This document shows, in pieces, positions 1 to 38,024 of a stretch of DNA of 38,024 nucleotides. Location: positions 1 to 38,024 of the IMG/VR virus record IMGVR_UViG_3300003267_000490. The stretch is one strand, 5' to 3'. The position numbers and the translations under genes are program-made. Within the stretch, counting starts at the first letter, position 1, and each line of letters begins with the position of its first letter. Origin of the DNA: a virus. The notes under the pieces were generated by a model. That model worked only from the letters and a program-made list of their open reading frames with translations. It was not told where the DNA came from and did no database searches.

Positions 1-6
1 AAGCAG

Positions 7-32
7 AGAGCCGGTGCTTGCGCACCGGCTCT
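7..32 (-). terminator. Perfect 11-bp hairpin with GCAA loop
   Basis: Positions 7-17 pair perfectly with 22-32. Read on the minus strand the loop is GCAA, a GNRA tetraloop. It lies 16 bp downstream of the tRNA in the direction of transcription and probably ends the leftward transcript. There is only a weak T-run after it (CTGCTT), so intrinsic termination is likely but not certain. Confidence 0.7.
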
Positions 33-47
33 GACCTGCATCTTCGG

Positions 48-122
<75 letters not shown>

Positions 123-805: not shown

Positions 806-2275
806 TCATCGGATCCACTCCCTCCACTTGTCGCCCTGGACCATCGCGGCGACGTCGTGGTTCTCGACGAGCGCCTGCCGCACGCGTTCGTCGACGGTGT
901 CGCGGGCCACGAGGTCGGTCACGACCACGCGGCTGTCCTGGCCCACGCGGTAGTTGCGCGCGTCCGACTGGAGGCGCACGACGAGCGCCCAGTCGTAGCT
1001 GTAGTTGATCGTGAACTTCGCCTCGTTGAGCGTCACGCCGATCCCGAGCGAGAGCGGATTGGCGACGAGGAACTGGATCTTGCCGGTGCGGAACGCCGAG
1101 AGCACTTCCTGCCGCTCGCGCTCGCTCACGGTACCGTCGATCCGACCGCACCGCGGGCCCAGCGGCCCGCGGTACTCGCTTGGCTTCCACCCGTTCAGCC
1201 GCTCCGCGACGCCCTGGGCGTCGTGCCGGAAGCGCGTCCACACGAGCGCCTGCTCGGTGAGGTCGGCGGTGCGCGCCTCGAGCGCGTCGAGACGCGGCAT
1301 CGCCGCGCAGATCTGATGCGTCTCGTCGTTCTCGTCGCGGTAGAAGCCGCACGCGACCTGGTGGAGGCGCATGAGCCGCTGGAGCGCGAGCGGCGCCTCG
1401 ATGACCAACCCGTCGCGCACCTCGGCCTGGTACGTGTCGACGAGGGACTCGTACACCCGGCGTTGCGCGGGCGCGAGCTCGAACTCGAGCTTCGCGAACA
1501 CCTGCGGCGGCAGGTCCAGCGCCTCGTCGCGCGAGAGGCGACTGCCGACCTCGTGCAGGATGTCGCGAAGCTCGTCGAGGTTTTGGTACTGGTCCAGCTC
1601 CTCGCACTTCTTGCCGTTCCAGTAGACCTGCTTCCAGGTCGCGAAGTGGTGCTTGAACGCCGTGTACGACCCGATCCCGCGCCGCTTCCAGTAGTCGCCG
1701 TCGAGGAATCGGATCTGCGCGTACGCGTCGAGCGGCGACTGGGCGATCGGCGTTCCGGTGAGGCCCACGCGGACGCCGGCGAGCTTGCCGGCCGCGATCG
1801 TCACCTTCGACCGCTCCGACGACGGCGTCTTGACCCAGTGGAGCTCGTCGGCGACGACCATCGCGCGCTGCTTCTTGCCCAGGAACTGGCGGCACAGCTC
1901 GCGGCCGGCGTCGGTCTTGATGCCGTCGTACGAGACGGCCAGGACCGCGAGCGAGCCGGACTGTAGGATCTCCGCCGAGGCCTCGCGCTGGTACTTCGTC
2001 TGCGCCTTGTCGGAGTGCCACGCGAGCGATCGCAGGTCGGTGATCCCGTGCTTCGGCAGCTCGTCGGTGATCCAGTTGGCGTGGACGACGTTCGGCGCGA
2101 CGACGAGGACGCGGTCGATGTCGCCCGCGGCGTAGCGACGCGCGGCGACGTGGACCGTCGGCAGCGACTTCCCGACGCCGGGATCCCACCACAGCGCCCA
2201 GGCGCTGGCGTTCCCGAAACGCTCAATGGCCGCCGCCTGATGGGCGAGCGGGATCGTCTTTAGGTTGACAACCAC
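806..2275 (-). CDS. SNF2-type superfamily 2 DNA helicase/translocase
   Basis: 489 residues with the ordered motifs of an SF2 Snf2-like ATPase: Walker A DPGVGKS (residues 31-37), motif Ia near VLVVAPNVVHANW, Walker B with DELH in place of DEAH (143-146), motif III GLTGTP (171-176), and in the second RecA-like lobe the ANPLSLGIGVTL and QSDARNYRVGQ motifs, including the arginine finger. Phage proteins of this type are thought to act in replication or recombination by moving along double-stranded DNA. The start is GTG at 2275, overlapping the upstream small gene by 16 bp, which suggests translational coupling. A plus-oriented copy of the TTTAGGTTGACA element covers codons 2-5. All core motifs are intact. 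Confidence 0.93.
   Translation of the reverse strand: MVVNLKTIPLAHQAAAIERFGNASAWALWWDPGVGKSLPTVHVAARRYAAGDIDRVLVVAPNVVHANWITDELPKHGITDLRSLAWHSDKAQTKYQREASAEILQSGSLAVLAVSYDGIKTDAGRELCRQFLGKKQRAMVVADELHWVKTPSSERSKVTIAAGKLAGVRVGLTGTPIAQSPLDAYAQIRFLDGDYWKRRGIGSYTAFKHHFATWKQVYWNGKKCEELDQYQNLDELRDILHEVGSRLSRDEALDLPPQVFAKLEFELAPAQRRVYESLVDTYQAEVRDGLVIEAPLALQRLMRLHQVACGFYRDENDETHQICAAMPRLDALEARTADLTEQALVWTRFRHDAQGVAERLNGWKPSEYRGPLGPRCGRIDGTVSERERQEVLSAFRTGKIQFLVANPLSLGIGVTLNEAKFTINYSYDWALVVRLQSDARNYRVGQDSRVVVTDLVARDTVDERVRQALVENHDVAAMVQGDKWREWIR
2259..2270 (+). repeat. TTTAGGTTGACA element inside helicase start
   Basis: An exact 12-bp copy of the promoter/boundary element, oriented against the gene. 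No convincing -10 lies 17-18 bp downstream on the plus strand, so it may be a binding site and not a promoter. Confidence 0.6.
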
Positions 2276-3138: not shown

Positions 3139-3683
3139 GCCGAAGTCCCGGCGTCCTTCGACGGCGGCTTGTGCGGCGACAGGATCATCGCGACGGCCAT
3201 ACCGACCGCGGCGAGCAGCTCCTGCGTGTTCGCCTCGCCCAGCATGCGCGCGATGACCGCGCTGCCGATCAGGATGCCGGCGGCGACGACCGCGGCGCCG
3301 CGACTGCCCTCGACGCGGAACGCGGCGACGCGTTTCTGGAGCGCGAGCAGGATGCCGACCATCGCGGTGAGGACGGCGATCGGCCACCCCTTCGCCCACA
3401 GAGCCTTGACCTCGCCGAAGAAGCCGGACGGGTCCTCGACGGGGTCGGCGATGCGCGGCGACGTGATGATGCCGCCCGCAGGGCCGGCGTCCGGGGGCGC
3501 GATGCTCGCCTCGCCGGTGAGCATCGGCGGGCCGCCCTTGCCGCCGCCCATGCTGTGGCCGACCTCCGCGACGCCGGCGTCGACCGCCACCGCGGCGGCC
3601 TTCGGGAACTTCACGTTGTCGGCGGAGACGACTGCCGGTGCGGAAACGATCAGCACCGCCAGAACGAGCTTGGTGATTCGCAT
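3135..3683 (-). CDS. Membrane protein with signal peptide, possible holin
   Basis: 182 residues: a signal peptide (1-21, cleavage near VVSADN), a Gly/Pro/Ala-rich exported linker (about 35-80), and three hydrophobic segments near residues 100-116, 129-147 and 155-169, ending in a charged tail (HKPPSKDAG). It lies directly upstream of the spanins with a GTGA overlap, so a holin role is plausible from context. Holins are usually shorter and lack a long exported domain, so this could instead be another virion or membrane protein. The start ATG is at 3683, 10 bp after a TAGTAG sequence, and no Shine-Dalgarno sequence is visible. Confidence 0.75.
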   Translation of the reverse strand: MRITKLVLAVLIVSAPAVVSADNVKFPKAAAVAVDAGVAEVGHSMGGGKGGPPMLTGEASIAPPDAGPAGGIITSPRIADPVEDPSGFFGEVKALWAKGWPIAVLTAMVGILLALQKRVAAFRVEGSRGAAVVAAGILIGSAVIARMLGEANTQELLAAVGMAVAMILSPHKPPSKDAGTSA

Positions 3684-3696
3684 GTGCAGGAGGCTA

Positions 3697-4435: not shown

Positions 4436-7400
4436 TTACTGCTCCAAATTGATGATCTCACGCGTGAAGAGGACGAACCGCCGGACGACCATGTTGGACG
4501 GCGGCATCTGGTGCCGCGTGAGCACGGTCGAGCTCGGCGTCCAGACGACGGCGCGCCCGCTCGTGACCACGGCGCCGGCGGTGTTGACGGCGATCGCGGA
4601 GAACGTCGCCGCCGCGTCGAGCAGCGCGGCGCGGTTCCACCGACCGCGGTAGGTGTTGACGGTCGTCCAGGTCGCCGCCGACGCACTCGCGGTGTTCGAG
4701 CCGCCTAGGCCGTCGAAGTGCTGGAACTGTGGTTGCGCCGTCGTCGAGTTCTTGATCAGGCGCGAGTCATTGGTGTTGGTGCCGTTGTCGATGTTGACGA
4801 TCGTCCGCGACACCGTCGGCGACGCCTCGACGCTGTAGGCATCGAGGTAGACCTCACCCTCGTGGTTGAACTGCCGCGAGAGCGTCTGCGTGAACGTGAC
4901 CGTCGAGTCCGCGAGCGATCCGCTGTACGGCGTCGCCAGCGGCACGGGGAGGCCGGTGCCCTGCCGCACGACGATCGGCCCCGCGAGCTGAATGGTGCGC
5001 GACGTCGCGTCGTTCGACGCGAAGAACTTCACCCGACCGTTCGCCGTCGACGCGTCCCACGTGGTGAACGTGTGCTCGAAACGCTGCCACGTCGCACCGA
5101 CCGTGTAATCGTGCGTCCCCTTCAGCACGCCGCTCGAGTTCTGAAGGATGACGGTCGCATCGTGCGGCGACCCCGCGGTGCGCGCGAACCACACCACCTG
5201 GACGTTGGTCGTCGCCGACAGCGCGACGTCGCTGTGGCGCACGCCGAGTCCACTCGTCGCGGTGGCCGCCCACTGGAGCGCGTCGCGGAAGCCCAGCGGG
5301 CCGGGTTGGTCGGGCACGTACGTCGGGCCGGCGTCGCGGATCCAGTTGGTCGTGTTACGCAGGTCGCACGCGGGCGCGAGGTTGGTGAACACCAGCGGGT
5401 TGGCCGCGCCGAAGCCCTGGTCGGCGAGGTTCGCGAACGCGAACTGGCTCTGGTGCCAGCTCGCGAACAGGTCGCCATCGTTGTCGCTGCCGACCTTCAC
5501 GACTGCGGAGCCCGTGCGCGTCGACGACGCCATCGTGAGCCCCGCCGGCACCGTCCCGTGCGTCCACAGCGACGACAGCTGGGCGCCGCTCAGAGCTTGC
5601 CGCCAGATCCACACGCGGGCGACCTGGCCGTCGAGGCAGTCTTGGCCGGCGACCACCTTGCCGATCGAGAACGGAACGAGGTCTTCGTTCTGGATCTGCC
5701 CGATGCCCACGGTGCTCGTCGAGGAGGTGCCCGAGGGATCGGCGACGGTGAGCGTGGACGTGAGCGGGTCGTACGAGATGGCGGCGAACCACGGCGCGCC
5801 GTCGCCGACCAGCGTACCACGGGTCGCGCTCGCGACGCCGTCGACGCCGCTCATGGTCGCGCGGACGAAACCGGCGCTGGTGAGCTCGAGCCACCATCCC
5901 GTGTCGGACGTGCCGCCGCGGCGGCCGACGAGCCCGCACGTCGCCGCCGTCGAGATGCGGCGGCGGAACACGATCACGCACGTGAAGGGCTCGGTGATCT
6001 TGAAGTTGCCGTAGAAGCGGCGGTCGTCCGATCCGACGATGCCGGCATCGGTCGAGTGGAGGTCCCAGCACGGCCACGGCGCGATCCCCGTCTCGGGGTC
6101 GTACGGCCCGACGAACTTTCCCTGAAGGAACCCGTTCGTCGACGACAACGTGGGCTCGATGGTCAAGTACCCGTGCGGGGAGTTGCCGTCGTACATGCCG
6201 TAATCCGGCATCGGCACCGTCGGGAACGCCTCGTACCACTCGCCGGGCCCGCGCGGCAGGCGTTGGACGACCGGCGTGCGAAAGTCGAAGTCGACGCGAC
6301 CGTCCGGATCGAGCCGCTTGTGGAAGCGGACGAAGATGTCGTCGAACTTCGACGACGCCGTCCCGGCCGCGAGGTGATCGGCGAGCAGCCGCACCCGGAT
6401 CACCGTGGCGTCGGGCGGAACGCTCTCGAGCACGAGCTCGCGGTACACCCAATTCGTCGTCGACGAGTACCCCTCCTGCGCCGCGGCGGCCGACGCGAGC
6501 ACGGTGCCGCCGCCGGTGCGCGCCTGGAGCTCGATCCACCCGACGTCGAGCGTGTCGGCGGTGTCGTTGCCCTGCATCCAGGTCACGAGGACGTCGCTGT
6601 ACTCGTACCCGGCGGGGATGGTCACGTCCTGGAACAGCTCGTTCGGCGACGCCGAGCCGCTCGCGACCGCATACCCGTCGTTGTCGACGGGATTCGTCGT
6701 GACCTGGGTCCAAGTCCCCGTCGCGGTCGTCCAGCCGGTGAGCGACGAGCTGAAGAGCCCGTTGGTCACCGCCTGGGCGGTCATCTGGCCCAGGCGCAGC
6801 TTGGGCGCGGTGAAACCCATCTCGCACGTCGACGGCTCGTCGCTCGACTCGAAGATGACGCGGACCTTCAGCGTGACGGTGCCGGCCGGCAGGTTCGCGT
6901 ACGTGCACACCTGCCGCGTCCACGTCACGGTCGACGAAGCCACCTGCGGACCGAACGACGACGAGCCGAGCACAGCGTCGTCCTCGTCGAGGGCCTCGAT
7001 CGTGACGGTGAGCTCGTCGTCGAGATCGGTCGCGAACGTCCTCCAAAAGAAGTCGAGCACGGCGGTCATGCGCTCGGGGTCATACCCGTCGACGCGCACG
7101 ATCTGCGACGCCTCGGCGATTGGCTCGTCGTCGGCGGGGTCGCCGCGGAACAGCTGGAACGCCGTCGTGATCTGCCCGGTCGTCGTGCGGGCCACGCCCT
7201 GCGTGGTGATCCACTCCTGATAATTACCCAGGTTCATGGGACCGGAGAATTCACTGTTGGTGAGCAGGTTCCGCCAGTGCTTGCAGTCCATCAGCACGCG
7301 CGGGCGATCCCACGACGTCTTCCCGTCGGCCGTCTCGAGGGCCTCGACACTCACCTCGATCTCGCCGTGCCCGCTGCGCGTGAGCGCGCCGAGCGCGCCG

Positions 7401-19577: not shown

Positions 19578-19586
19578 CTGTGCGGG

Positions 19587-19616
19587 AGTCTACTCGATTC
19601 CGGCACGTATTAGCAA
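19587..19616 (-). promoter_or_regulatory. Candidate promoter for tail chaperone/tape measure block
   Basis: TTGCTA (19611-19616) and TAGACT (19587-19592) are separated by 18 bp, and the ATG lies 9 bp past the -10. The -10 matches the leaderless class; the -35 is a weaker match. It sits just beyond the hairpin that ends the tail tube transcript. Confidence 0.5.
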
Positions 19617-27576: not shown

Positions 27577-27606
27577 AACCTACCTCGAAGCGTGTGCAGG
27601 AGTCAA
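27577..27606 (-). promoter_or_regulatory. Promoter for the 27346-27570 gene
   Basis: TTGACT (27601-27606) and TAGGTT (27577-27582), 18-bp spacer, ATG 6 bp past the -10. The TGA of the portal gene overlaps the -35. The -10 is itself part of a GTAGGTTGAC copy (27574-27583). The -35 region (27592-27608) repeats the 17-mer at 788-804. Confidence 0.68.
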
Positions 27607-29492
27607 GTAGCCTTCCGCTTCTTGGCCGCCGGCTTGGGCTTCTTCCCCGCAGCGGGCTTCTTGGCGTCGCTCTCGAGCTTCTTCCCGCCCCGGGCGATGC
27701 GGGCGTCCTCCTGCCCGATCCCGGCGCGGGTCGCCTCGGTTTGTGCGGCGGTGGCGTCGAGGCCCATGCGCGCGCCCTCGATCTCCGCCTGCCGCATGTC
27801 GAGGTCGAGCTGGTGCTGCTCAGCGGTGAGCTCGTCGGGCACCTTCGGCAGGCGCATGCGCGTGCGGAGCGTGTTGACCACCGGGTCCTTCGGGTGCAGC
27901 TTCGCACCGGCCTTGGCGGCCTTCTCGAGCATGTCGGCGACGCGCGTCGCGTCCTCGACGGAGACCTCCTCGAAGCGGATACGCGGCTTCAGCTCGGGGT
28001 CGAACCCGTTGAGGACCCACAGCGGGCCCACGAGGTCGCGGTTGAACGCCTCGCACGCGTCGGTGAGGACCGAGTTCACGTAGCCGGCGAGGAATCGGGA
28101 TTTTTCTTCGCCCAGGGCGCGGTTGGACCCGCCGTCGCCGCCGAGCATGAAACCCTCGGCGAATAGCGTGCGGGCGATCTCGCGCTGCTTGCCGTCGATG
28201 GCCTTGCGGATCGCCTCGTGCGAGTCGCCGTCGCCGGTGAGCAGGTCCACGCTCCACTCCGGCACCGTCGAGGGGGTGGCATTGGCGTCGAGCGACCGGT
28301 GGACCGAGCTGTCGAGCATGACCGCGAGCTTCTCGTCGCGGACGTGCTTCGTCATGAAGTCCTTGAGCGGCTTGATCGCCTTCTCTTTCGCCTCGTCGGT
28401 GAACTTCAGCGCGTCCATCTTCGCGAGCGGCGCGCGCGTGACCGGGATGCCGCGCAGGTCGGTCTCGTAGCCGATGCCCTCGAGCGACTCGAGCCGGCGC
28501 AGCTGGTTCACCTTGTTGACGGAGTGGCGGAGCAGGCCCACGCCCTGCGGGTCGCCGTCAGCGAGCTCGTCGTCGACGACGTAGAGGAGCTTCCAGCGCG
28601 GGATGTACGTGAACTCCGACGTGAGCGGGATCCGCTGGCCCACGCCCTGGAGGGTGCCCGAACGGTCGAGGTCCCACTGCTCGATCGTCGCCGGCGGCCG
28701 ATTCTCGACGTCGGCGATGCCGATGCGCCCGTCCGCGCGCCGCTCGGCGGTCCACTCGTGGATGGAGCAGCCCGTCGGCTTGAACATCACCGTGCGGCGG
28801 ACGAGCGACCACCACGGCGACTGCATGTCGTGGAACAGCACCTGCTCGACCCACTCGGCGAGCTCCTTCGCCTTCTCCGCGCGCGGGTCGACCGGCGGCA
28901 CCATCGCGCCCGGTTCGGCGGCGCCCGGCGCAGCGGGCTTCTTCTGGCCTGGGGGCGACTTGACGTCAACCTGATTTTCGGGACGCCGCGGCGACGTGCC
29001 GGGCGGGCGCGGCTCCTTGGGCGGGTCGACGCGCTTCCAGACCTTCTGGGCAGGGCCTGCCGCTTCGGCCTTCGGCCGGTTTCCATCAGCACCCGCCGGG
29101 CCGGGGGGACCAGAAACCTTCGACTCCGGCGGCGAAGACGCCGCGGGAGCGAAGGTTGGAGGATCCACGTCCCAGTGGACGCCGCCTGCCAACATGGTGA
29201 GAGCGCGGACGCCGATCGCGACGGAATCGACGTCTCGCATGTTCTCGTTGTAGAGAACGAATTTGTTGGTTCCCTTGAGCTTCGGGTTCCGCTCGACCTC
29301 GACGACGTACCCGCCGACCACCGCCACGCCGCCACCGCCCACGGTAGCGGCCGGCGACGGGGACGTGCGCTCGGCGGCCATGCTTGGGTCCATGGCCTGG
29401 TCCGCGGGCGTCGCGCCCGGGCTCTCGACCTTCGGCCAGCGGCCCTTCTCGACCTCGGCCGCCTCGGCGTCGCCGCTTTCGCGGGCGGTCAC
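27603..29492 (-). CDS. Portal protein
   Basis: 629 residues from GTG 29492, overlapping the terminase stop (GTGA). The core contains the typical portal stem/wing run: SWWLV-type region near QSPWWSLVRRTVMFKPTGCSIHEW, then IPRWKLLYVVDDELADGDPQGVGLLRHSVNKVNQLRRLESLEGIGYETDLRGIPVTRAP. The C-terminus is a long helical, basic tail (KKPAAGKKPKPAAKKRKAT). A Pro/Gly-rich linker (about 110-210) near the N-terminus is unusual and may be an insertion. It forms the ring through which DNA is packaged. Confidence 0.88.
   Translation of the reverse strand: MTARESGDAEAAEVEKGRWPKVESPGATPADQAMDPSMAAERTSPSPAATVGGGGVAVVGGYVVEVERNPKLKGTNKFVLYNENMRDVDSVAIGVRALTMLAGGVHWDVDPPTFAPAASSPPESKVSGPPGPAGADGNRPKAEAAGPAQKVWKRVDPPKEPRPPGTSPRRPENQVDVKSPPGQKKPAAPGAAEPGAMVPPVDPRAEKAKELAEWVEQVLFHDMQSPWWSLVRRTVMFKPTGCSIHEWTAERRADGRIGIADVENRPPATIEQWDLDRSGTLQGVGQRIPLTSEFTYIPRWKLLYVVDDELADGDPQGVGLLRHSVNKVNQLRRLESLEGIGYETDLRGIPVTRAPLAKMDALKFTDEAKEKAIKPLKDFMTKHVRDEKLAVMLDSSVHRSLDANATPSTVPEWSVDLLTGDGDSHEAIRKAIDGKQREIARTLFAEGFMLGGDGGSNRALGEEKSRFLAGYVNSVLTDACEAFNRDLVGPLWVLNGFDPELKPRIRFEEVSVEDATRVADMLEKAAKAGAKLHPKDPVVNTLRTRMRLPKVPDELTAEQHQLDLDMRQAEIEGARMGLDATAAQTEATRAGIGQEDARIARGGKKLESDAKKPAAGKKPKPAAKKRKAT
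28965..28972 (-). repeat. AGGTTGAC site in portal gene
   Basis: The coding-strand copy lies in the Pro/Gly-rich insert of the portal gene. Only 8 bp match the element core, so it is weaker than the others. Confidence 0.35.
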
Positions 29493-31222
29493 GGCTCGTA
29501 CCCCCACACGCCCTCGGACGTCTCGACGAGCTCGATGCATTGCCCGCCGGTCGGCGGGGGCGGCAACGGCGGCGCCGACAAGAGCTTGGCGTACGCGCGC
29601 GACGACGCGTCGATCGGGTCCTTGAAGCGCCCGGCCGGGAACATCTTCATGATGTTGACATACTGCCGATTCCACGGGCCCTTTACCAGTCGAACCCGCC
29701 GCGCGTTAACCTGCGAGGCGAACGGCAGGGCGCGGATCTCCTTCTCGCCGGTCTCAGGAGAGAACTCGAAGACGTGCCCGGCGAGCGCCTTGGTCGCCAG
29801 ATGCGACACCTGGGCCTTGCCGGCCTGCCCTGGGTCTTGGGGCAGGTCCTGATGCACGCCGCGGAGATGTGCCCAGCGCGGGTCCGCGTCGTCGCGGTCC
29901 GCGGTGGCCTCGATGAGCGCGTCGACGCCCTCCGGCGGCAGGCGCTCGATGACGCAGTCGACGACCCACAGCGCGTACTCGGTCTCGGCCATGAGCACGC
30001 CGGCGGTGAACGGGCTCGTCTTTTTCACGCTGCCGGCGAGGTCCCAACCTCGCACCTTATAGGTTGACGCGATGGCGAGTCGCTCCTTCTCAGGGATGTC
30101 GTGCCACTCGACGACGTAGTGCGGGTAGAGCTCATTGTCCTCCTGGAACGGCGTGACGTCGAACATGCCGCCCTTGCGGGCGATCGGGAACTGGCGGAGC
30201 TGCCCGGCCTCGGCGTATTCGCCGCCCTTGAACCGGAACTTCTCCTTCAGCAACCGCACCGCCTCGGCGGTGTAGCGCTCGGGCCAGCAGAGGGCACCCT
30301 CGCGCTGGTCCTTCGGCAGGTCGCGCCGCGGGTCGCGCCAGCCCAGGCGCGACCGGCGCTTGCGCGCGACGGGGTGTGACTCCTCGAACTCCATCTCGAT
30401 GCACAGGTGCTCGAAGCCGAAGTACTCGGCGTGCTCGAGGATGGCGCCCGATACATCGTACTCGTGGAGGCGCTGCATGATGACGACCTCGACGGGCCGG
30501 GCCGGGTTGTTCTGGCGTGACGAGGCCGCCTCGAAGAACCACAGGACCGCGGCGTCGCGCATGACGTCCGACTCGGCCTCCATCGTGTTGTGCGGGTCGT
30601 CGACGACGAAGCGATCGCCGCGCTCACCGATCGTGGCGCCGCCCACGGACATGGCGAGCTTCCAGCCCATGGCGGTGTTGCCGAAGCGCACCTTCGAGTC
30701 GATGTCCGACGACACCTGGACGCGGTCGCCCCACAGAGCCTGATACCACGGCGACTTCACGACGTTGCGGCACTTGCGGTTCGCCTCGAGCATCAGGCGC
30801 TCGGCGTACGCGGCCGCGCAGTACCGGAGATGCGGCAGGTTGCGCGGGCCCCACTCCCAAGCCGGCCAGAACACGTTCGTGATCTGCGTCTTCGACGTGC
30901 CGGGCGGCACGTTGATGAGCACGCGGTTCAAGTGCCCCGCGGTGATCGCCTCGAGGTGCTCGCAGATCGCCTCCATGACCCACCCGCGCACCATCGGCGT
31001 CGACGGGTCGGTGATGTGCCAGCCCAGCTCGACGAAGTCCATGAGGGACTCCTCGCAGTCGAGCTTGTCGAGCAGGCGCAGCGTCTCGTCGGGGAGCCGC
31101 GCGACCGTCTCGAGCTGGTCGTACTCGAGGCCGGGATCACTCCGCTGCTTGGATCGCCACGGGGGTGCCCAGCGCGGCACCGGGGGTTCGTCGACGGGCT
31201 CGAGGGCGGTCTGAGATTCCAC
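29489..31222 (-). CDS. Terminase large subunit
   Basis: 577 residues from GTG 31222. The ATPase half shows Walker A VPPGTSKT (105-112), Walker B VVDDPH (206-211) and the coupling segment VIMQRLHEYDVSG (247-259). The nuclease half begins VRGWDLAGSVKKTSPFTAGVLM, whose Asp fits the RNase H-like active site, and continues WVVDCVIERLPPEGVDALI. It pumps and cuts DNA at the portal. The small subunit is 3 kb away, with an island of small genes between. A TAGGTTGAC copy (30060-30068) lies inside. Confidence 0.95.
   Translation of the reverse strand: MESQTALEPVDEPPVPRWAPPWRSKQRSDPGLEYDQLETVARLPDETLRLLDKLDCEESLMDFVELGWHITDPSTPMVRGWVMEAICEHLEAITAGHLNRVLINVPPGTSKTQITNVFWPAWEWGPRNLPHLRYCAAAYAERLMLEANRKCRNVVKSPWYQALWGDRVQVSSDIDSKVRFGNTAMGWKLAMSVGGATIGERGDRFVVDDPHNTMEAESDVMRDAAVLWFFEAASSRQNNPARPVEVVIMQRLHEYDVSGAILEHAEYFGFEHLCIEMEFEESHPVARKRRSRLGWRDPRRDLPKDQREGALCWPERYTAEAVRLLKEKFRFKGGEYAEAGQLRQFPIARKGGMFDVTPFQEDNELYPHYVVEWHDIPEKERLAIASTYKVRGWDLAGSVKKTSPFTAGVLMAETEYALWVVDCVIERLPPEGVDALIEATADRDDADPRWAHLRGVHQDLPQDPGQAGKAQVSHLATKALAGHVFEFSPETGEKEIRALPFASQVNARRVRLVKGPWNRQYVNIMKMFPAGRFKDPIDASSRAYAKLLSAPPLPPPPTGGQCIELVETSEGVWGYEP
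30060..30068 (+). repeat. TAGGTTGAC site in terminase gene
   Basis: A plus-oriented copy opposite to the direction of transcription, with no matching -10. Confidence 0.5.
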
Positions 31223-31230
31223 CCGGTCTA

Positions 31231-31635
31231 CTATCGCACAGGTTCGAGCTCCGCGAGCGATCGGCGTTGCCGCGCACGCCGGAGCAACTGGCCCACCGCT
31301 TCCGCGCGCAGGCCCAGGTCGCGGGCGAGTCGCTGCTGCGTGAGCCGCGGGAACTGGTCGAACAGTGCGAGCAGATCCTCGGCGAGCGCGGGCGGGACGC
31401 AGCGCGGGTGATAGCCCAGGGTCGGGCTCACCGGGAGGTGCTTGAGCCGGCAGGTGAGGGACGCGCAGGGGCTCGGCGGCCAGCGGTTGAGCGCGCGGGT
31501 CGGCTGGCTTGGGGTCTCGTTGTTGGGTTGGGACGCGTCGAAGCGGACTTCCACCGTCGAGATCGGGCGCGACGAGATGAGGGTGCCGGTTCCCGCACCG
31601 GGACTCGCTGTGGGTTGGTTCGGATCGGGTTCCAT
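31231..31635 (-). CDS. Small protein with C-terminal HTH-like region
   Basis: 134 residues, not recognised. The N-terminal 90 residues are Pro/Ser/Thr-rich and probably disordered. The C-terminus (LLALFDQFPRLTQQRLARDLGLRAEAVGQLLRRARQRR) reads as a helix-turn-helix with a basic end. It fits exactly between the zinc-ribbon gene (3 bp upstream) and the terminase start (8 bp downstream), which supports it as real. It may bind DNA as an accessory packaging or regulatory protein. Confidence 0.65.
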   Translation of the reverse strand: MEPDPNQPTASPGAGTGTLISSRPISTVEVRFDASQPNNETPSQPTRALNRWPPSPCASLTCRLKHLPVSPTLGYHPRCVPPALAEDLLALFDQFPRLTQQRLARDLGLRAEAVGQLLRRARQRRSLAELEPVR

Positions 31636-31637
31636 GA

Positions 31638-31648
31638 TTTAGGTTGAC
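31638..31648 (+). repeat. TTTAGGTTGAC site at zinc-ribbon gene end
   Basis: Plus-oriented; on the minus strand it supplies the TAA stop of the zinc-ribbon gene just before the next ATG. No -10 is seen on the plus strand. Confidence 0.55.
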
Positions 31649-31887
31649 TTCTTCTGGTCGTCGGCGGAGACGATCGTGAATTCTATGTCGTTGGCGTCGG
31701 GTGCCCAGTCGCGGCTGTCCTTCGGGTCGCCTCGGGTCGGGTCCCAGGCCTCTCCGCACAGGCCGGTGGTGTACGAGACGGCGCAGCCGGTACAGGTGTA
31801 CTTGGGTCGGCCGTCGTTGGGGTCGTTTCCGTCGCGTTGGACGGTAAACCGAAGGCAATTCTTGCACTTACCGCGTGGTGTCTTCAT
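31639..31887 (-). CDS. Small zinc-ribbon protein
   Basis: 82 residues. Cys8-x2-Cys11 and Cys32-x2-Cys35 form a zinc ribbon (CKNC ... CTGC), with an extra Cys44. An acidic C-terminus follows. Zinc ribbons of this size in phages often act in transcription or as nuclease cofactors; no more can be said. ATG 31887 lies 6 bp past a TAGAAA -10. Confidence 0.72.
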   Translation of the reverse strand: MKTPRGKCKNCLRFTVQRDGNDPNDGRPKYTCTGCAVSYTTGLCGEAWDPTRGDPKDSRDWAPDANDIEFTIVSADDQKKST

Positions 31888-32479: not shown

Positions 32480-32725
32480 TCACGCCATGAGAGCGAGGGC
32501 GAGGATCGCGAACTGGTCGCCGGCGGCGGCGGCGCGCTCGTGCTGGGCGCGGATCTCGGCGCGGAGGGCGGCGACGTGCGGGGCGGCGGCGGCGAGGACG
32601 CGGGCGCGCTCCTGCTCCTCGAGGACGATGGCCTCCATGAGGCGGCGGGCCTGCTCCTCGCGCGACTGGGCGAGGATCTCGCGACCGAGCTTGCGTCCCG
32701 CCACCGTCTGGATCGTGTTCGTCAT
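32480..32725 (-). CDS. Small unknown helical protein (island gene)
   Basis: 81 residues, not recognised. A long amphipathic helix (REEQARRLMEAIVLEEQERARVLAAAAPHVAALRAEIRAQHERAAAA) suggests a coiled coil. ATG 32725 is preferred over a GTG two codons earlier because that GTG would touch the -10. The first five codons (MTNTI) and the 17 bp around the start are shared with the 33033-33248 gene. Confidence 0.7.
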   Translation of the reverse strand: MTNTIQTVAGRKLGREILAQSREEQARRLMEAIVLEEQERARVLAAAAPHVAALRAEIRAQHERAAAAGDQFAILALALMA

Positions 32726-32731
32726 GAGCAC

Positions 32732-32766
32732 ACCCTAGCGCGCCGCGCGGCGCGTGTCAACCTAAA
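32732..32766 (-). promoter_or_regulatory. Leaderless promoter, TTTAGGTTGACA type
   Basis: TTTAGGTTGACA at 32755-32766, 17-bp spacer, TAGGGT at 32732-32737, ATG 6 bp further. The TAG of the upstream gene is inside the element. Confidence 0.8.
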
Positions 32767-32995
32767 AGTTGCCGACCGCGCGGCACGCGTCCGCGTAGGC
32801 CGCAACCTCGGCCGCGGTTGCCAGGCGGAGCTGTGTCCCGCGGAAGATCCACGGGCCGCGACCCAGGATCTTGTGCTCCTGGGTCACGCGCGCGTCGCGG
32901 TCGGCGCCGACGTCGGCGGTGTAGGCGGTGGCGGGCTCGCCGTCGGGGAGAACGACGATGGCGGTGGTCTCGGTGCCGTTGGGCTTGTGCGTCAT
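32762..32995 (-). CDS. Small unknown protein (island gene)
   Basis: 77 residues, not recognised. The first half is beta-like (TETTAIVVLPDGEPATAYTADVG), then ILGRGPWIFRGTQLRLATAAEVAAYADACRAVGNF. It ends in GNF like its neighbour, because both stops use the TTTAG of the shared promoter element. ATG 32995 is set by the promoter 7 bp upstream. Confidence 0.68.
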   Translation of the reverse strand: MTHKPNGTETTAIVVLPDGEPATAYTADVGADRDARVTQEHKILGRGPWIFRGTQLRLATAAEVAAYADACRAVGNF

Positions 32996-33002
32996 GGGAG
33001 GC

Positions 33003-33037
33003 ATCCTCTCACAGCACGTCAGCCGTGTCAACCTAAA
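33003..33037 (-). promoter_or_regulatory. Leaderless promoter, TTTAGGTTGACA type
   Basis: Element at 33026-33037, spacer 17 bp, GAGGAT at 33003-33008, ATG 7 bp further. The TAG of the upstream gene is within the element. Confidence 0.75.
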
Positions 33038-33248
33038 AGTTGCCGACCACGGCTGCCTGCAAGACCACCACGAGCGCTTCCTCCATCAGCTCGTCCGCCT
33101 GCTCGGCGGTGATCTTGCGCGCCTTGGCCAGACCCTCGGCGCCGAGGGTGAGGCACTGACATGCCGCGCCGAGCTTGAGATCACCGTAGATCTTGGCGTC
33201 GGCGGCGAGGGCGCGGAGCTGGCGGGCGGTCGGGATCGTGTTCGTCAT
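33033..33248 (-). CDS. Small unknown protein (island gene)
   Basis: 71 residues, not recognised, helical (ARQLRALAADAKIYGDLKLGAACQCLTLGAEGLAKARKITAEQADELMEEALVVVLQ). It may relate to the 32480-32725 gene only through its shared start region. The start at ATG 33248 follows a GAGGAT -10 by 6 bp. Confidence 0.7.
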   Translation of the reverse strand: MTNTIPTARQLRALAADAKIYGDLKLGAACQCLTLGAEGLAKARKITAEQADELMEEALVVVLQAAVVGNF

Positions 33249-33254
33249 GGGAGC

Positions 33255-33290
33255 ATCCTCTCACAGGCTCGTCGGTCGTGTCAACCTAAA
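33255..33290 (-). promoter_or_regulatory. Leaderless promoter, TTTAGGTTGACA type
   Basis: Element at 33279-33290, spacer 18 bp, GAGGAT at 33255-33260, ATG 6 bp further. A hairpin at 33313-33339 ends the upstream gene first, so this gene is an independent unit. Confidence 0.75.
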
Positions 33291-33312
33291 ATTCTCGTCC
33301 CGTGCGGGGTGA

Positions 33313-33339
33313 GGCCGGCGCGGACCATCCGCACCGGCC
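33313..33339 (-). terminator. Hairpin after the 33353-33610 gene
   Basis: GGCCGG/CCGGCC and GCGG/CCGC stems with one C-A mismatch and a 5-nt loop. It lies 13 bp downstream of the stop. GC-rich and without a T-run. Confidence 0.5.
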
Positions 33340-33352
33340 CCGGCGGGCCCGG

Positions 33353-33610
33353 TCACCCGACCGAGCGGAGCTCGAGGTCGCCGCAAGCGCGGCGGCAGTC
33401 GACCCAGTTGCCGGCGTCGCCGGGCCAGGCGAAGCAGGACAGGCCGTGAACCGCGAGGAGCGGGCCGACCGCGCGGCCTTGGGCGCCGCCGCGGAGCGTG
33501 AGCACGCGGTGGGCGACGCCGGGCAGGCCCTGGAAGATCGTGGCGTCGTCGGCGCGGCGGAAGCGGTTGAACGGGTCGCGAGCGGAGCAGGTCGTCGTGG
33601 TGGTCGTCAT
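33353..33610 (-). CDS. Small unknown protein (island gene)
   Basis: 85 residues from ATG 33610, not recognised. N-terminal poly-Thr (MTTTTTTCS), then DPFNRFRRADDATIFQGLPGVAHRVLTLRGG and a C-terminal WPGDAGNWVDCRRACGDLELRSVG with three cysteines nearby. A TATTGA sequence 10 bp upstream may be its -10, with no convincing -35. Confidence 0.62.
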   Translation of the reverse strand: MTTTTTTCSARDPFNRFRRADDATIFQGLPGVAHRVLTLRGGAQGRAVGPLLAVHGLSCFAWPGDAGNWVDCRRACGDLELRSVG

Positions 33611-33707
33611 CTTGACCCATTCAATATGCTCGCGGCGTGCCACGATCCCGATCCGTTCCCGTTCGCGCACTTGGCCGGTGCGGGGCGGCCTCGGACCTGT
33701 CGGGAGT

Positions 33708-33735
33708 ACGGTCGGTGTCGTTGGCGACGACACTC
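33708..33735. repeat. Repeated hairpin, copy 2
   Basis: 27 of 28 bases match 32443-32470. It lies between the leftward 33353-33610 gene and the plus-strand promoter at 33770, where it could stop leftward transcripts coming from the small terminase gene. Confidence 0.65.
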
Positions 33736-33769
33736 GAGCGCCAACCCCGCGATCTCTGGTCGCGACAAA

Positions 33770-33804
33770 TTTAGGTTGACAGGAGACGCGGGCCGATCTA
33801 GACT
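33770..33804 (+). promoter_or_regulatory. Plus-strand leaderless promoter, TTTAGGTTGACA type
   Basis: Element at 33770-33781, spacer 17 bp, TAGACT at 33799-33804, ATG 6 bp further. The only case on the plus strand, showing the element moves with its gene. Confidence 0.8.
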
Positions 33805-33810
33805 CTCTTC

Positions 33811-34077
33811 ATGCTCACGACGCTCAAGGCCCTGCTCCTCGCCGCCAAGCTCCTCGCTCTTCCCGTCGGTGGCACGCCCTACGGCACCGAGAAGATCTGT
33901 CAGGAGTACTACCCCGGCCGCGACCTCGACGACCCCATGATCGCCGAGTGCGCGTGCCAGCTCTCGACCTGGCAGTGCGAGGCGCAGGGCTGGTGCTCTG
34001 ACGAGGAGACCGCGCCCTACCAGGCCGTCGCGCGCGGCCTGCCCGACCCGTACCGCATCGAGCTCGGCTGCCGCTAA
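33811..34077 (+). CDS. Small secreted Cys-rich protein, only plus-strand gene
   Basis: 88 residues. A short basic start and hydrophobic core (TTLKALLLAAKLLALPVGG) look like a signal peptide. The mature part has six cysteines at 30, 47, 49, 56, 62 and 87 (KICQEYYPG, AECACQL, WQCEAQGWC, LGCR), suggesting disulfides. It is unrecognised. Opposite strand, own promoter and flanking hairpins mark it as a moron-type gene, which in other phages often alters the host envelope or excludes competitors. That role is inference. Confidence 0.82.
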   Translation: MLTTLKALLLAAKLLALPVGGTPYGTEKICQEYYPGRDLDDPMIAECACQLSTWQCEAQGWCSDEETAPYQAVARGLPDPYRIELGCR

Positions 34078-34183
34078 TCAGCGCCAGGAGCCTCGCCACG
34101 AGGCGCGAGCGCCGACCCGCACCGAACCCCTGCCCGACCTCCGATCGGCCCGTGGCGCGCCCGCCAGCGCGTCTCGTGGGCCG

Positions 34184-34885
34184 CTACGCGTCGTCGCTCG
34201 CGCCGTCGTCCAGCCGCTCGAGCTCGAGGTCGATCGCGCCGGTCGCGCCGGACACCTCGCCAGAGGCCTCTGGCTTGCCCGTGGCGGGCTCTTCGCCCTG
34301 CCCTAGGCTCGCAGCCGCCCCGGCGCGCAGCGTGGCTCTCAGGGCAGCACGTTGCGCCCTGGTGAGGTTCTCGAGATCCAATGCCGGACCGGCCCCGGCT
34401 ACCGCGCCGGCCGTCGCCGTGGCGGTCACTGTGACTTTCGGGCCACTTGCGGCCGCCTCGCGGTACTCCCGATCGACCCGCTTCGCCTCAAGAATCAGCA
34501 ATTGATCTGAAAATACGCGCCTTTGGCCAACTACGTGACCCTGGTGGTACACGTCCTCCAACACGCCCTCCATGCCCCGCCGCTGCACCTCTGCGCGCAC
34601 CCGACCGGCGTACGCGTCGAGCGCTTCCTGCCACAAGGCCGCGAATTCTTTGTCAGAATTGCGGAATTGCTCGGCACCTTGACGCGACACGTTGGCCGAA
34701 TTCGCCGCCGTAGAAACGCGCCCTGTTGCTGCAAGTACTTGTAAAAACACGATCTGGCGCTGTTTCGAGCCCCTGAACTTACTCCAATCGGTCGGATTCG
34801 GACTCCAACGCGTCTCTTGCGCGATGACAATAGATCCATCTTCATTGCGCTCGTAACCCGGTGGAATATCATCGGTTTCCGACAT
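34184..34885 (-). CDS. Terminase small subunit
   Basis: 233 residues. After an acidic, disordered start comes KQRQIVFLQVLAATGRVSTAANSANVSRQGAEQFRN, the helix-turn-helix typical of small terminases (about 54-75), then EFAALWQEALDAYAGRVRAEVQRRGMEGV and VYHQGHVVGQRRVFSDQLLILEAKRVDREYRE. The C-terminal 90 residues are Ala/Thr/Gly-rich and probably flexible. It recognises the packaging site and activates the large subunit. The N-terminal coding part is notably less GC-rich than the C-terminal part. Confidence 0.87.
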   Translation of the reverse strand: MSETDDIPPGYERNEDGSIVIAQETRWSPNPTDWSKFRGSKQRQIVFLQVLAATGRVSTAANSANVSRQGAEQFRNSDKEFAALWQEALDAYAGRVRAEVQRRGMEGVLEDVYHQGHVVGQRRVFSDQLLILEAKRVDREYREAAASGPKVTVTATATAGAVAGAGPALDLENLTRAQRAALRATLRAGAAASLGQGEEPATGKPEASGEVSGATGAIDLELERLDDGASDDA

Positions 34886-34893
34886 CTAGCCCC

Positions 34894-34922
34894 AGTATAT
34901 TGACTTTTGGTCAACAGCGCAA
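34894..34922 (-). promoter_or_regulatory. Terminase small subunit promoter
   Basis: TTGCGC (34917-34922), 17-bp spacer, TATACT (34894-34899), ATG 8 bp further. A dyad TTGAC-N5-GTCAA fills most of the spacer (34900-34914), a likely operator. Confidence 0.68.
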
Positions 34923-34977
34923 GTGCTTGAAATCAGGCCTGCAAACGCTGACGAGTGTCAGTCACTGACGAATGTCA
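34900..34977. promoter_or_regulatory. Operator-like dyad cluster
   Basis: Three dyads sharing TGAC/GTCA half sites: TTGAC-N5-GTCAA at 34900-34914, TGAC-GAGT-GTCA at 34949-34960 and TGAC-GAAT-GTCA at 34966-34977, the last two 17 bp apart. A dimeric regulator could bind here and control the terminase promoter. Confidence 0.55.
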
Positions 34978-35137
34978 ACGAAACCACGCCAACCCATCGA
35001 TTTCCCATTCGCCCAGGTCGCGCGCGCCCTCGAACTGTATCGCCACGCACACTACGTGCTGGGGACACCGGGGAGTGCTGACTAGTACTTTTTCGGAATA
35101 CCAGAACACTCCCCCTGTAGTTTCTATTACTTTATTA

Positions 35138-35265
35138 CTTTTTAGGGGATAAATATATAAAAGTAGAAAGGGTCTGTTCGTTTGAGTAACAGGGCCGGGG
35201 GCCACGGCTCACTGCGTCAAAATTTTCAAACCCTCGCGACTCAGAGGGGGTTGTCCCCTAAAAAG
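35138..35265. repeat. 12-bp inverted repeat pair
   Basis: CTTTTTAGGGGA (35138-35149) is perfectly complementary to TCCCCTAAAAAG (35254-35265), with 104 bp between the arms. Confidence 0.75.
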
Positions 35266-35345
35266 CAAACAAGCCCCCGTTTTCACAGGAGCTTGTCTCT
35301 TGCATATGGGTTTTCAACTCCCCGTTTTTCCACGGGAACCCAGCA

Positions 35346-35891
35346 CTAACTGTCGTCCAACTCACCAAAAACGGCCGCGCTGCGCACAGTATGCGACATG
35401 AACTCGGCTCGGCCGTAGCTCGCGCGCTGCGCCGCGATGCGTTGGCGCGCCGCATCAATTCCGATTGGAATGATGGGTGCAGAGCGCTTGGTCTCGTGAA
35501 CGTCGGTCAATGGTTTGACCGATCGCGCCTCGTACTCGGCGAACTCGCGCGCCATCTTTGCGCGGTGCTCGGGCCGGTAATCGCCGTCCGCCCACTCGTC
35601 ATCCTCCCACGCGTCCCCGCCGCGAATGCACCACGCGCCCAGCGGCCGACCAGCGCGACCGAACCCCGGGCGCTTGACCTTGTAGATCTTGTCCCCCCAC
35701 AGGCGCAGCACGTGCTTTCGCAGCGTGCGCTCGACTTGCCAAGCGTTGCACCCGATATCAAGCGCGATCTCGTCGATCGTTGCGCCACCGCAAGTTTCCT
35801 TGCGGTTCTCGAGGAAGGCCATCCTCTGGCGCCGTCCGATGGCTCGCACGACGGCCTGCGGCGTCGCGTCGAGATCTCCGATCTTCCCCAT
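35346..35891 (-). CDS. Helix-turn-helix DNA-binding protein
   Basis: 181 residues. A probable helix-turn-helix spans about 37-60 (ATIDEIALDIGCNAWQVERTLRKH), followed by a winged part (LWGDKIYKVKRPGFGRAGRPLGAWCIRG) and a charged, helical C-terminus. It could be a transcription regulator or an origin-binding protein acting on the AT-rich region directly downstream. Its own promoter places the ATG 8 bp past a TAGGGT. Confidence 0.75.
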   Translation of the reverse strand: MGKIGDLDATPQAVVRAIGRRQRMAFLENRKETCGGATIDEIALDIGCNAWQVERTLRKHVLRLWGDKIYKVKRPGFGRAGRPLGAWCIRGGDAWEDDEWADGDYRPEHRAKMAREFAEYEARSVKPLTDVHETKRSAPIIPIGIDAARQRIAAQRASYGRAEFMSHTVRSAAVFGELDDS

Positions 35892-35899
35892 GCCGCCCT

Positions 35900-35929
35900 A
35901 CCCTACACCGCCACCTGGGCCACGCGCAA
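35900..35929 (-). promoter_or_regulatory. Promoter for the 35346-35891 gene
   Basis: TTGCGC (35924-35929), 18-bp spacer, TAGGGT (35900-35905), ATG 8 bp further. The -35 matches that of the terminase small subunit promoter. Confidence 0.65.
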
Positions 35930-36012
35930 GCGCCTCTCCGCCCGGGCAACATTCTGTCCTAAAAGCTCGGAACAATTGGAATTCTGCACGTTGTGTCATC
36001 GTACCTTCCTAC

Positions 36013-36222
36013 TCAAATGCCGTGGCGGCTGCTGATGACGCCACCGATCACGCAAAGGGCCCGAACCAGCTGGCCGGCCGCGACCGCGGTGAGCGCGCCT
36101 CCCTCGCCGATGCTCGCGGCGTTATGGTAGGCGGCGATCGCCGCGTCGACACGCGCCGCATACATGTACTTAGCGACGATCTCGGTGTTGCGGGCGATGC
36201 GAGCGGCCTCGGTCATCTTCAT
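36013..36222 (-). CDS. Small unknown helical protein
   Basis: 69 residues, not recognised. Helical and Ala-rich (MTEAARIARNTEIVAKYMYAARVDAAIAAYHNAASIGEGGALTAVAAGQLVRAL), one hydrophobic C-terminal stretch (CVIGGVI) too short for a sure membrane helix. ATG 36222 lies 9 bp past TAGGTT. Confidence 0.68.
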   Translation of the reverse strand: MKMTEAARIARNTEIVAKYMYAARVDAAIAAYHNAASIGEGGALTAVAAGQLVRALCVIGGVISSRHGI

Positions 36223-36231
36223 GTTGACCCT

Positions 36232-36266
36232 AACCTACTCCATCCCTCGTCACCTGTCAACCTAAA
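36232..36266 (-). promoter_or_regulatory. Leaderless promoter, TTTAGGTTGACA type
   Basis: Element at 36255-36266, spacer 17 bp, TAGGTT at 36232-36237, ATG 9 bp further. Confidence 0.8.
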
Positions 36267-36270
36267 TTCA

Positions 36271-36498
36271 TCACCACCGGTCGACGACCCGATCGGTCAC
36301 GTCCTCGCCGTCGCGCAGCTCCCACACCTTCTCACCGTGTCGCCAGCACTGTTGGCCGCCGCGCACTCGCACGCGACCCTGGGCGTCGGTGAGCGCGCTC
36401 GTGGCCGCCGTCTCGCCGCGGTCGGTGACGCGGACGGAGACACCGCAGACGTTCGCGGGGCGCCCCGTGGGCAACCCGCTGCGCCGGCCGATCGTCAC
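36271..36498 (-). CDS. Small basic unknown protein
   Basis: 75 residues from GTG 36498 (GTGA overlap with the upstream stop, so translated from the same message). Beta-like and Arg-rich (VCGVSVRVTDRGETAATSALTDAQGRVRVRGGQQCWRHGEKVWELRDG). Not recognised. Confidence 0.62.
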   Translation of the reverse strand: MTIGRRSGLPTGRPANVCGVSVRVTDRGETAATSALTDAQGRVRVRGGQQCWRHGEKVWELRDGEDVTDRVVDRW

Positions 36499-36896
36499 GC
36501 GCGCTCCGCGTCGCTCGCCGCGTCGCGGAGGAAGGACGCGGCGAGCGTCCGGGCCTTGACCCATCCCTGGATCGAGTAGAGATCGGCGCCGTGCTCTGCC
36601 GCGCGCTTCTGCGATTCCATCGCGGCGTAGACTGCCCGATAGCCGGTCGTGATGAAGGCCATCGCCAGCGGGCGCCAGCCATCGCAGGCGCGGAACCGCT
36701 CGCGGTGGTCGACCTCCATGCGGTACTCGAGCGCGTCGCTCGCGGCCGCGGCGAGCTCGCGCCAGTCGGGGCGATCGTTGGGGTCGGCGTCGACGATGCG
36801 CCGGCACGCGGCGCGGACCGACGCGAGGTAGCCCTCGCACTGGGCATCGGTGCGGAGGCAGGCGGGGACGGGCATCGGGCGCTCGGTGTGCATCAT
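36495..36896 (-). CDS. Unknown 133-residue protein
   Basis: Not recognised. Several Cys in the first half (VPACLRTDAQCEGYLASVRAACRRIVDADPNDRPDWREL), then a helical region (ALEYRMEVDHRERFRACDGWRPLAMAFITTGYRAVYAAMESQKRAAEHGADLYSIQGWVKA). ATG 36896 lies 8 bp past TAGGAT. Confidence 0.72.
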   Translation of the reverse strand: MMHTERPMPVPACLRTDAQCEGYLASVRAACRRIVDADPNDRPDWRELAAAASDALEYRMEVDHRERFRACDGWRPLAMAFITTGYRAVYAAMESQKRAAEHGADLYSIQGWVKARTLAASFLRDAASDAERA

Positions 36897-36904
36897 GGGA
36901 ACCC

Positions 36905-36939
36905 ATCCTAGCGCCGGTCGGCGCGGTTGTCAACCTAAA
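36905..36939 (-). promoter_or_regulatory. Leaderless promoter, TTTAGGTTGACA type
   Basis: Element at 36928-36939, spacer 17 bp, TAGGAT at 36905-36910, ATG 8 bp further. The upstream gene's TAG is inside the element. Confidence 0.85.
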
Positions 36940-37297
36940 TTTCACCCCTCACGCCGAACCCGGCCGGGATCGGGAAGATCTTGGTCCGCTCCCCACCACC
37001 GTCGTACGCGAGATAGCAGAACCCGCACCGCTCGAGTGCCGTGTGCGTCGTGTAGTTCTTGACCACCCCGTGATCGAGCGCGTGGACGAGCACCCACCAC
37101 GACGGCGCAGTTCCGCGCGGCGCCCTGGGCAAGGCCTTGGCGCATGTCCTGGCCCACCGTTCGGCGTCGGCACGATTCGAGAATGCTTGAGTGGGCGACC
37201 TGTAGTCCGCGGCGCGGTTGAACGCGCAGATCGCCACCGCGTAGCGCGCCCAGCGCGGCGAGTCGTAGTAGTGGCGGATGGTCTCGGATCTCGTCAT
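36935..37297 (-). CDS. Unknown 120-residue protein
   Basis: Not recognised. Basic and helical at first (RHYYDSPRWARYAVAICAFNRAADYRSPTQAFSNRADAERWARTCAKAL), later WWVLVHALDHGVVKNYTTHTALERCGFCYLAYDGGGERTKIF with a GFC motif. The promoter spacing, 7 bp past TAGGGT, sets ATG 37297. Confidence 0.7.
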   Translation of the reverse strand: MTRSETIRHYYDSPRWARYAVAICAFNRAADYRSPTQAFSNRADAERWARTCAKALPRAPRGTAPSWWVLVHALDHGVVKNYTTHTALERCGFCYLAYDGGGERTKIFPIPAGFGVRGEI

Positions 37298-37304
37298 GAG
37301 CTCA

Positions 37305-37339
37305 ACCCTACTCTCACCTGGCAGATCTGTCAACCTAAA
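37305..37339 (-). promoter_or_regulatory. Leaderless promoter, TTTAGGTTGACA type
   Basis: Element at 37328-37339, spacer 17 bp, TAGGGT at 37305-37310, ATG 7 bp further. The upstream TGA lies within it. Confidence 0.85.
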
Positions 37340-37715: not shown

Positions 37716-37727
37716 TGTCAACCTAAA
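37716..37727 (-). repeat. TTTAGGTTGACA element without -10
   Basis: It lies between thyA and the next gene and runs straight into the Shine-Dalgarno AGGAGGG. No TAGxxT follows at 17-18 bp. Confidence 0.7.
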
Positions 37728-37728
37728 T

Positions 37729-37764
37729 ACGCATCACACGCATCACACGCATCACACGCATCAC
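37729..37764. repeat. Four tandem 9-bp repeats at thyA end
   Basis: ACGCATCAC four times in a row. The last copy holds the thyA stop codon. The unit is a multiple of three, so gain or loss would shift only the non-coding tail. Confidence 0.9.
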
Positions 37765-38024
37765 ACGGCGACGTCGAAGCGGATCGCCGGATGGTGTTGG
37801 TAGTTTTCGAGCTGGACGTCCTCGAACGTCATCTCGAGCACCGGCTTCTTCGCCAGGCGCAGCGTCGGCAGCGGGAACGGCTCGCGCTCGAGCTGCATCT
37901 TCAGGCCCTCGACGTGGTTCAGGTACACGTGGGCATCGCCCATCGTGTGGATGAAGAACCGCGGCACGAGGTTGCACTCCTGCGCGATCATCGACTGCAA
38001 GAGCGCGTAGCTCGCGATGTTGAA
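37761..38024 (-). CDS. thyA: Thymidylate synthase ThyA, C-terminal part
   Basis: Partial: the right edge cuts the gene, leaving 87 residues and the stop. The run [55 protein letters not shown] matches the ThyA core: FNIASYALL, the GDAHVYLNH block that binds dUMP, and REPxPLP. It methylates dUMP to dTMP with methylene-tetrahydrofolate. Phages carry it to supply thymine nucleotides for replication. Confidence 0.96.

Follow-up and report, generated by a model that had tools for sequence, protein, structure and literature searches.

We analysed the complete IMG/VR virus record IMGVR_UViG_3300003267_000490 (38,024 bp, 67% GC; hereafter the window) and found seven small genes that each lie behind a near-identical promoter, placed so close to the start codon that their mRNAs are very probably leaderless. 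In all seven the -35 hexamer, TTGACA, is the end of one 12-mer, TTTAGGTTGACA (the box). Our best explanation is that these accessory, probably early, genes would each be served by their own promoter of the host sigma70 type, with TTGACA inside the invariant 12-bp box, a 17- or 18-bp spacer and a TAGxxT-like -10 element; that RNA would begin at the ATG or 0-3 nt upstream of it; that a further DNA-binding protein, probably phage-encoded, would read the box and place the set under joint control; and that the genes are packed as cassettes, the stop codon of one lying inside the box of the next. As a whole we consider this explanation probable, resting mainly on its leaderless part.

The seven-member promoter family

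The seven starts, at 32725, 32995, 33248, 33811 (plus strand), 36222, 36896 and 37297, form a single family, whose membership and geometry are near certain and whose anatomy is read directly from the bases. Upstream of 32725, on the minus strand, an exact copy of the box (32755..32766) contains the TAG stop of gene 32995-32762 and is followed by the -10 hexamer TAGGGT (32732..32737), 6 nt from the ATG of an 81-aa gene (32480..32725). The second gene (32762..32995, minus, 77 aa) has its box at 33026..33037, containing the TAG stop of gene 33248-33033, and a GAGGAT -10 at 33003..33008, 7 nt from the ATG, while for the third (33033..33248, minus, 71 aa) the box lies at 33279..33290 and the -10, again GAGGAT, at 33255..33260, 6 nt from the ATG; both GAGGAT hexamers carry a TGn extension. 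On the plus strand, the box at 33770..33781 and the hexamer TAGACT at 33799..33804 belong to an 88-aa gene (33811..34077), with a gap of 6 nt. The other members are on the minus strand, namely a 69-aa gene (36013..36222; box 36255..36266; TAGGTT at 36232..36237, 9 nt from the ATG, with a predicted leader of 0-3 nt), a 133-aa gene (36495..36896; box 36928..36939, containing the TAG stop of gene 37297-36935; TAGGAT at 36905..36910, gap 8 nt) and a 120-aa gene (36935..37297; box 37328..37339, containing the TGA stop of gene 37704-37330; TAGGGT at 37305..37310, gap 7 nt); these last two, like the first four, are predicted to be leaderless. Genes ending at 32762, 33033, 36935 and 37330 thus take their stop codon, TAG or TGA, from a promoter-linked box.

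The spacer between the -35 and -10 hexamers is 17 bp in six members and 18 bp at 33248, and its sequence varies from member to member while the box stays constant. The last base of the -10 (position -7) is T in 7/7, and the base before the ATG (-1) is C in 7/7, compared with a pyrimidine at 29/77 other ATGs, which fits a pyrimidine-purine initiator placed at the start codon. The pattern TTGAC-N-17/18-nAGnnT-6..9-RTG occurs nine times in the window, whereas 300 order-1 Markov sequences averaged 0.06 occurrences and never exceeded 2. Likewise, the stricter TTGAC..TAnnnT occurs seven times, every one with an ATG or GTG 4-9 nt further on, compared with 0.0 in shuffles.

A sequence-only reading of this DNA had proposed a promoter family of at least ten genes, all with leaderless mRNAs; our analysis retained the seven starts above and removed the other five. 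Three of these (2538, TTGACA-18-TAGCTT-9; 34885, TTGCGC-17-TATACT-8; 35891, TTGCGC-18-TAGGGT-8) are heterogeneous single sites outside the family, where leaderless initiation is only possible. A different repeat, ACTTGACTCCTGCACAC, is common to the starts at 767 and 27570, which are probably leadered rather than leaderless because SD-like (Shine-Dalgarno-like) sequences (GAAGGA, GAGGTAGG) precede them. Besides the box, the window has a second repeated motif, ACTCCTGCACA, in five copies at no more than one mismatch (0.33 expected), at 789-799, 2558-2568, 3683-3693, 19579-19589 and 27593-27603. Its copies lie near the starts at 767, 3683, 19577 and 27570, with an inverted one near 2538, and it is possibly a second (late) class of promoter or operator.

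One could suppose that promoter-gene cassettes were recently copied and that their boxes have not yet diverged. The genes at 32725 and 33248 both begin MTNTI, and positions 32753-32780 match 33024-33051 over 28 nt at 96%; the other members, however, have unrelated spacers and proteins behind the same invariant box, and we regard recent duplication as a very improbable source of the family.

Predicted transcription start and the Shine-Dalgarno alternative

The -10 hexamer of a sigma70 promoter occupies positions -12 to -7, and therefore +1 in the seven members would fall at the ATG or 0-3 nt before it. From this geometry we infer the transcription start and leaderless translation, and we hold leaderless initiation of the seven genes with high confidence.

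Separate promoter families in other viral contigs offer independent support for the leaderless reading. A distant relative of the window (contig G055, locus L050), related over head, tail, portal, terminase and helicase genes and syntenic in its structural module, carries at 29-47 kb (L339-L342) about 20 early genes behind near-identical leaderless-type promoters. These consist of a long repeat (AAAAGAAAACGA..CAAAGTAGCCCCGGG..CCCGGGG), a TAnnnT hexamer and an ATG 4-6 nt further on (6 nt in 13/20), with C at -1 in 19/20; the -10 is, for example, TACACT or TATACT, with no AGG. There is no TTGACA -35, the spacer contains the dyad CCCCGGG..CCCGGGG, most of the genes begin ATGAAGAA, and the element bears no resemblance to the box of the window. 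Unrelated high-GC viral contigs, chosen otherwise than by kinship, behave similarly: G020 (L300-L303) has 15 near-identical promoters, TTGACAGATCAAG..TGTAAGGT, with the ATG 5-8 nt on (form TTGACAGATCAAG..TAAGGT-ATG) and none in a reversed control, while G022, G090 and G072 share CTTGACATAGTTTACCG..TATnnT-6-ATG, the distance from -10 to start in G022 and G090 peaking at exactly 6 nt. Among 63 high-GC viral loci selected by TerL, the same distance also peaks at 6 nt (29 cases, where the other distances average 6.7), although 10 of those 29 belong to the L050 family, and TerL loci from bacterial genomes show no such peak (16 versus 13.4). Across the families of the window, G055 and G020, a pyrimidine stands at -1 in 38/43 starts, compared with 145/328 other ATG starts.

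The sequence-only reading had further stated that these transcripts leave no room for an SD sequence, and that structural genes are instead well supplied with one. The second statement was borne out (for example, -10.0 kcal/mol at 21176 and -10.3 kcal/mol at 23822), while the first needs qualifying, as the AGG of the -10 scores as a weak SD in DNA and its absence from the mRNA depends on where transcription starts. An alternative account would therefore take this AGG to be the SD itself and the box to be an unrelated upstream element, with leadered, polycistronic mRNAs. AGG does lie 8-12 nt upstream of the ATG in most members, calculated pairing with the anti-SD reaches -6.9 kcal/mol for the DNA upstream of 36896 and -5.9 kcal/mol for that upstream of 36222, and the genes are tightly packed in the same direction. 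However, an SD would not easily account for T at -7 and C at -1 in 7/7 members or for the constant 17 or 18 bp from TTGACA; the member at 33811 has TAGACT and no SD, and the G055 family keeps a like geometry with TACACT or TATACT and no AGG. We judge the SD account to be decidedly improbable.

The box beyond the -35 element and its candidate reader

The box is present in nine exact copies and one copy with a single mismatch in the window, compared with 0.02 expected; with respect to the genes, eight copies point the same way and two are inverted. Three copies lie outside the seven promoters. An exact copy at 37716..37727 (minus strand) has no -10 and is directly followed by the SD GGAGGG and the GTG at 37704 (SD energy -10.8); beside it, GTGTGATGCG is repeated four times in tandem (37727-37765, minus strand) between thyA and gene 37704. 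The two inverted copies, both on the plus strand, lie at gene junctions: gene 2538-2260 takes its TAA stop from an exact copy at 2259..2270, which also overlaps the helicase gene's start, and gene 31887-31639 takes its TAA from the mismatched copy, TTTAGGTTGACT, at 31638..31649, whose end is 2 nt short of the ATG at 31635. The conserved 12-mer, the SD-preceding copy, the inverted copies and the stop codons within boxes were all missed by the sequence-only reading, whose description of ordinary promoters is incomplete, since some copies lack a -10 or are inverted.

Because 12 bp are invariant in front of differing spacers, and because of the SD-type copy without a -10 and the inverted junction copies, the box appears to be more than a -35 element, and on balance we favour its being bound by an additional protein. 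The simpler possibility is that the genes have ordinary strong phage promoters, with the 12-mer acting as an extended -35 (UP-like sequence plus TTGACA) for host RNA polymerase alone; the mRNAs would still be leaderless. TTGACA and TAGxxT are near consensus, and several boxes have AT-rich bases upstream. Against this, TTTAGG is perfectly kept in nine exact copies despite a genome of 67% GC, one copy precedes an SD without any -10 and two are inverted at junctions; we consider ordinary promoters alone unlikely.

A second possibility is immunity of the L5 type, the box being an asymmetric operator or stoperator through which a phage repressor would prevent initiation where there is a promoter and halt elongation at gene junctions. 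The layout matches that given for the repressor sites of cluster A phages, which are asymmetric sites of 12-13 bp at promoters and short gene junctions (PMC9283540), and the 12-mer of the window is likewise asymmetric, lying over the -35 and also over stop and start codons at junctions. However, L5 sites correlate with the direction of transcription, whereas box orientation in the window is mixed (eight versus two inverted) and its promoters are of the leaderless type. Neither an integrase nor a repressor was found in Pfam and PHROG scans of selected proteins from this incomplete genome, with no direct comparison to gp71. An L5-like system is, in our view, quite unlikely.

The best candidate for such a protein, albeit a weak one, is a 134-aa product with a C-terminal helix-turn-helix (31231..31635, minus strand), its coding frame assigned from codon-position GC. 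Its match to Sigma70_r4 (E 0.014) is below the cut-off, its C-terminus is predicted to form three helices with a predicted local distance difference test score (pLDDT) of 71-85 by blocks of ten, and in the model this bundle resembles a helix-turn-helix; a fold search against the PDB returned helix-turn-helix folds only, none of them significant. The open reading frame 29489-31867 had first been read as a single terminase, although codon-position GC showed its first ~230 codons to be in the wrong frame, overlying the real genes 31231-31635 and 31639-31887.

Related phages, initiator tRNA and known systems

The structural module of the window is siphophage-like, with Terminase_6C, a portal of the Mu type and a major head protein that shares 48% identity with that of Pseudomonas phage KPP23, and further products include an SNF2-type helicase and a Pam3 gp33-like protein. 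A weak Rz-like spanin match (E 0.00018) favours a Gram-negative host; the resemblance of the -10 form to actinobacterial promoters, noted in the sequence-only reading, is not diagnostic of the host. No near-identical phage was present in the phage collection searched, searches by portal, capsid and one protein of the leaderless genes recovered no close relatives, and a search for exact matches to the tRNA across 84,980 genomes gave no host. Structure prediction for the protein at 35346-35891 was uninformative (pLDDT 40). An AT-rich intergenic region at 34900-35330 combines TGACGARTGTCA-like repeats with a terminator-like hairpin of 14 pairs and is a possible origin or regulatory region.

We scanned loci of TerL relatives, 80 from viral contigs, 80 from bacterial genomes and five annotated phages, and the box family of the window was absent from all of them; the full box-promoter pattern had six matches in IMG/VR, which is about chance by estimate. 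The only pair of loci with several further near copies of the box, L013/L015, is AT-rich with an SD-type leader. Several points weigh against our explanation. The isolate relatives KPP23, S0112, RDJL1, R6L and X3_2 have no such promoter family, and neither have nearly all the other TerL-relative contigs; the window is an incomplete genome whose end falls within thyA (thymidylate synthase); the AGG of the -10 resembles an SD, so that on read-through transcripts the genes could be SD-led; and the regulator, which we infer with only a candidate protein to propose, is the weakest step. The expectation of the same spacing in related phages accordingly failed for the five isolates, while G055 has a like geometry in a different sequence.

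Other terminase relatives carry repeats of their own. G043 (L335-L338; locus L023) has, at 39.9-43.8 kb, 12 near-identical sites that follow, or closely approach, the form TAAAG-N14/15-GCCGATAA and mostly precede small genes. These resemble the FliA/sigma28 consensus, which we take to be unusual for phage early genes. In another terminase-relative phage (L022), the palindrome TCTTACGTAAGA and its variants form an array at positions 5338-5541.

The sole tRNA of the window is an initiator-type tRNA-fMet (48..122, minus strand), with three G:C anticodon-stem pairs, an A1.C72 mismatch, A11:U24 and an encoded CCA. Its D-loop is shortened, and the same short-D-loop type was found in 20 IMG/VR contigs. 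Extra initiator tRNA has been reported to boost leaderless translation strongly while having little effect on SD-led translation (PMC9031893), and a phage-borne copy could favour the leaderless mRNAs. G020, G022 and G072 each have one Met-CAT tRNA, the single tRNA of G020 being initiator-type, and a short-D-loop initiator tRNA occurs together with a leaderless set in G020 and the G022/G090 lineage. As a cause of such sets, though, the tRNA was rejected: ten contigs (G013, G014, G015, G016, G030, G083, G084, G086, G087 and G088) have the tRNA and no leaderless set, and G055 has the set without any tRNA. A rough Fisher test of the association gave p 0.012 on partly overlapping choices and is not relied on. 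The link across contigs is weak, a lead only. The bolder idea of a translation switch, in which a phage's own initiator tRNA would cause preferential translation of co-regulated leaderless mRNAs and different phages would repeatedly have built such sets around a box of their own, is a long shot.

Among known systems, the cluster O mycobacteriophages (Corndog group) have SigA promoters at which transcription is predicted to begin on the first nucleotide of the start codon (PMC4351075). There, three of 8-9 promoters (PL1, PR2 and PL2) are so described, and most promoters lie apart from the repeated 17-bp palindrome, whereas the invariant box of the window is part of all seven leaderless-type promoters. 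Thermus phage phiYS40 has many leaderless middle and late genes, with a reported change in initiation factors in their favour, IF2 being raised and IF3 lowered (review PMC3594737). The window differs in having seven sequence-predicted cases among small accessory genes, with a phage initiator tRNA as the candidate aid in place of the IF2/IF3 shift. In Deinococcus-Thermus, TANNNT fixed a few bases before the open reading frame has been shown experimentally to give leaderless mRNA (PMC12340547); that arrangement is host-wide, with the -35 an optional enhancement, while the box of the window is phage-specific, invariant and contains the -35. Lambda cI mRNA from PRM is translated from a 5'-terminal AUG, and its need for initiation factors drops when initiator tRNA is abundant (PMC9031893); cI is a single repressor gene, the window a multi-gene set. 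Compared with these systems, as described in the open-access literature, what appears to be new is an apparently co-regulated leaderless gene set on one invariant box.

Leaderless phage genes are mostly known as single cases, and in the window an entire group of small genes is built on a single invariant promoter box. The ~20 genes of G055, with the same geometry in unrelated sequence, suggest that this architecture itself has either been retained or evolved more than once. If the leaderless reading is confirmed, such starts would be mis-scored by gene callers relying on an SD sequence, and these phages would allow experiments on what favours leaderless translation in infected cells, a phage-borne initiator tRNA being one possible factor.

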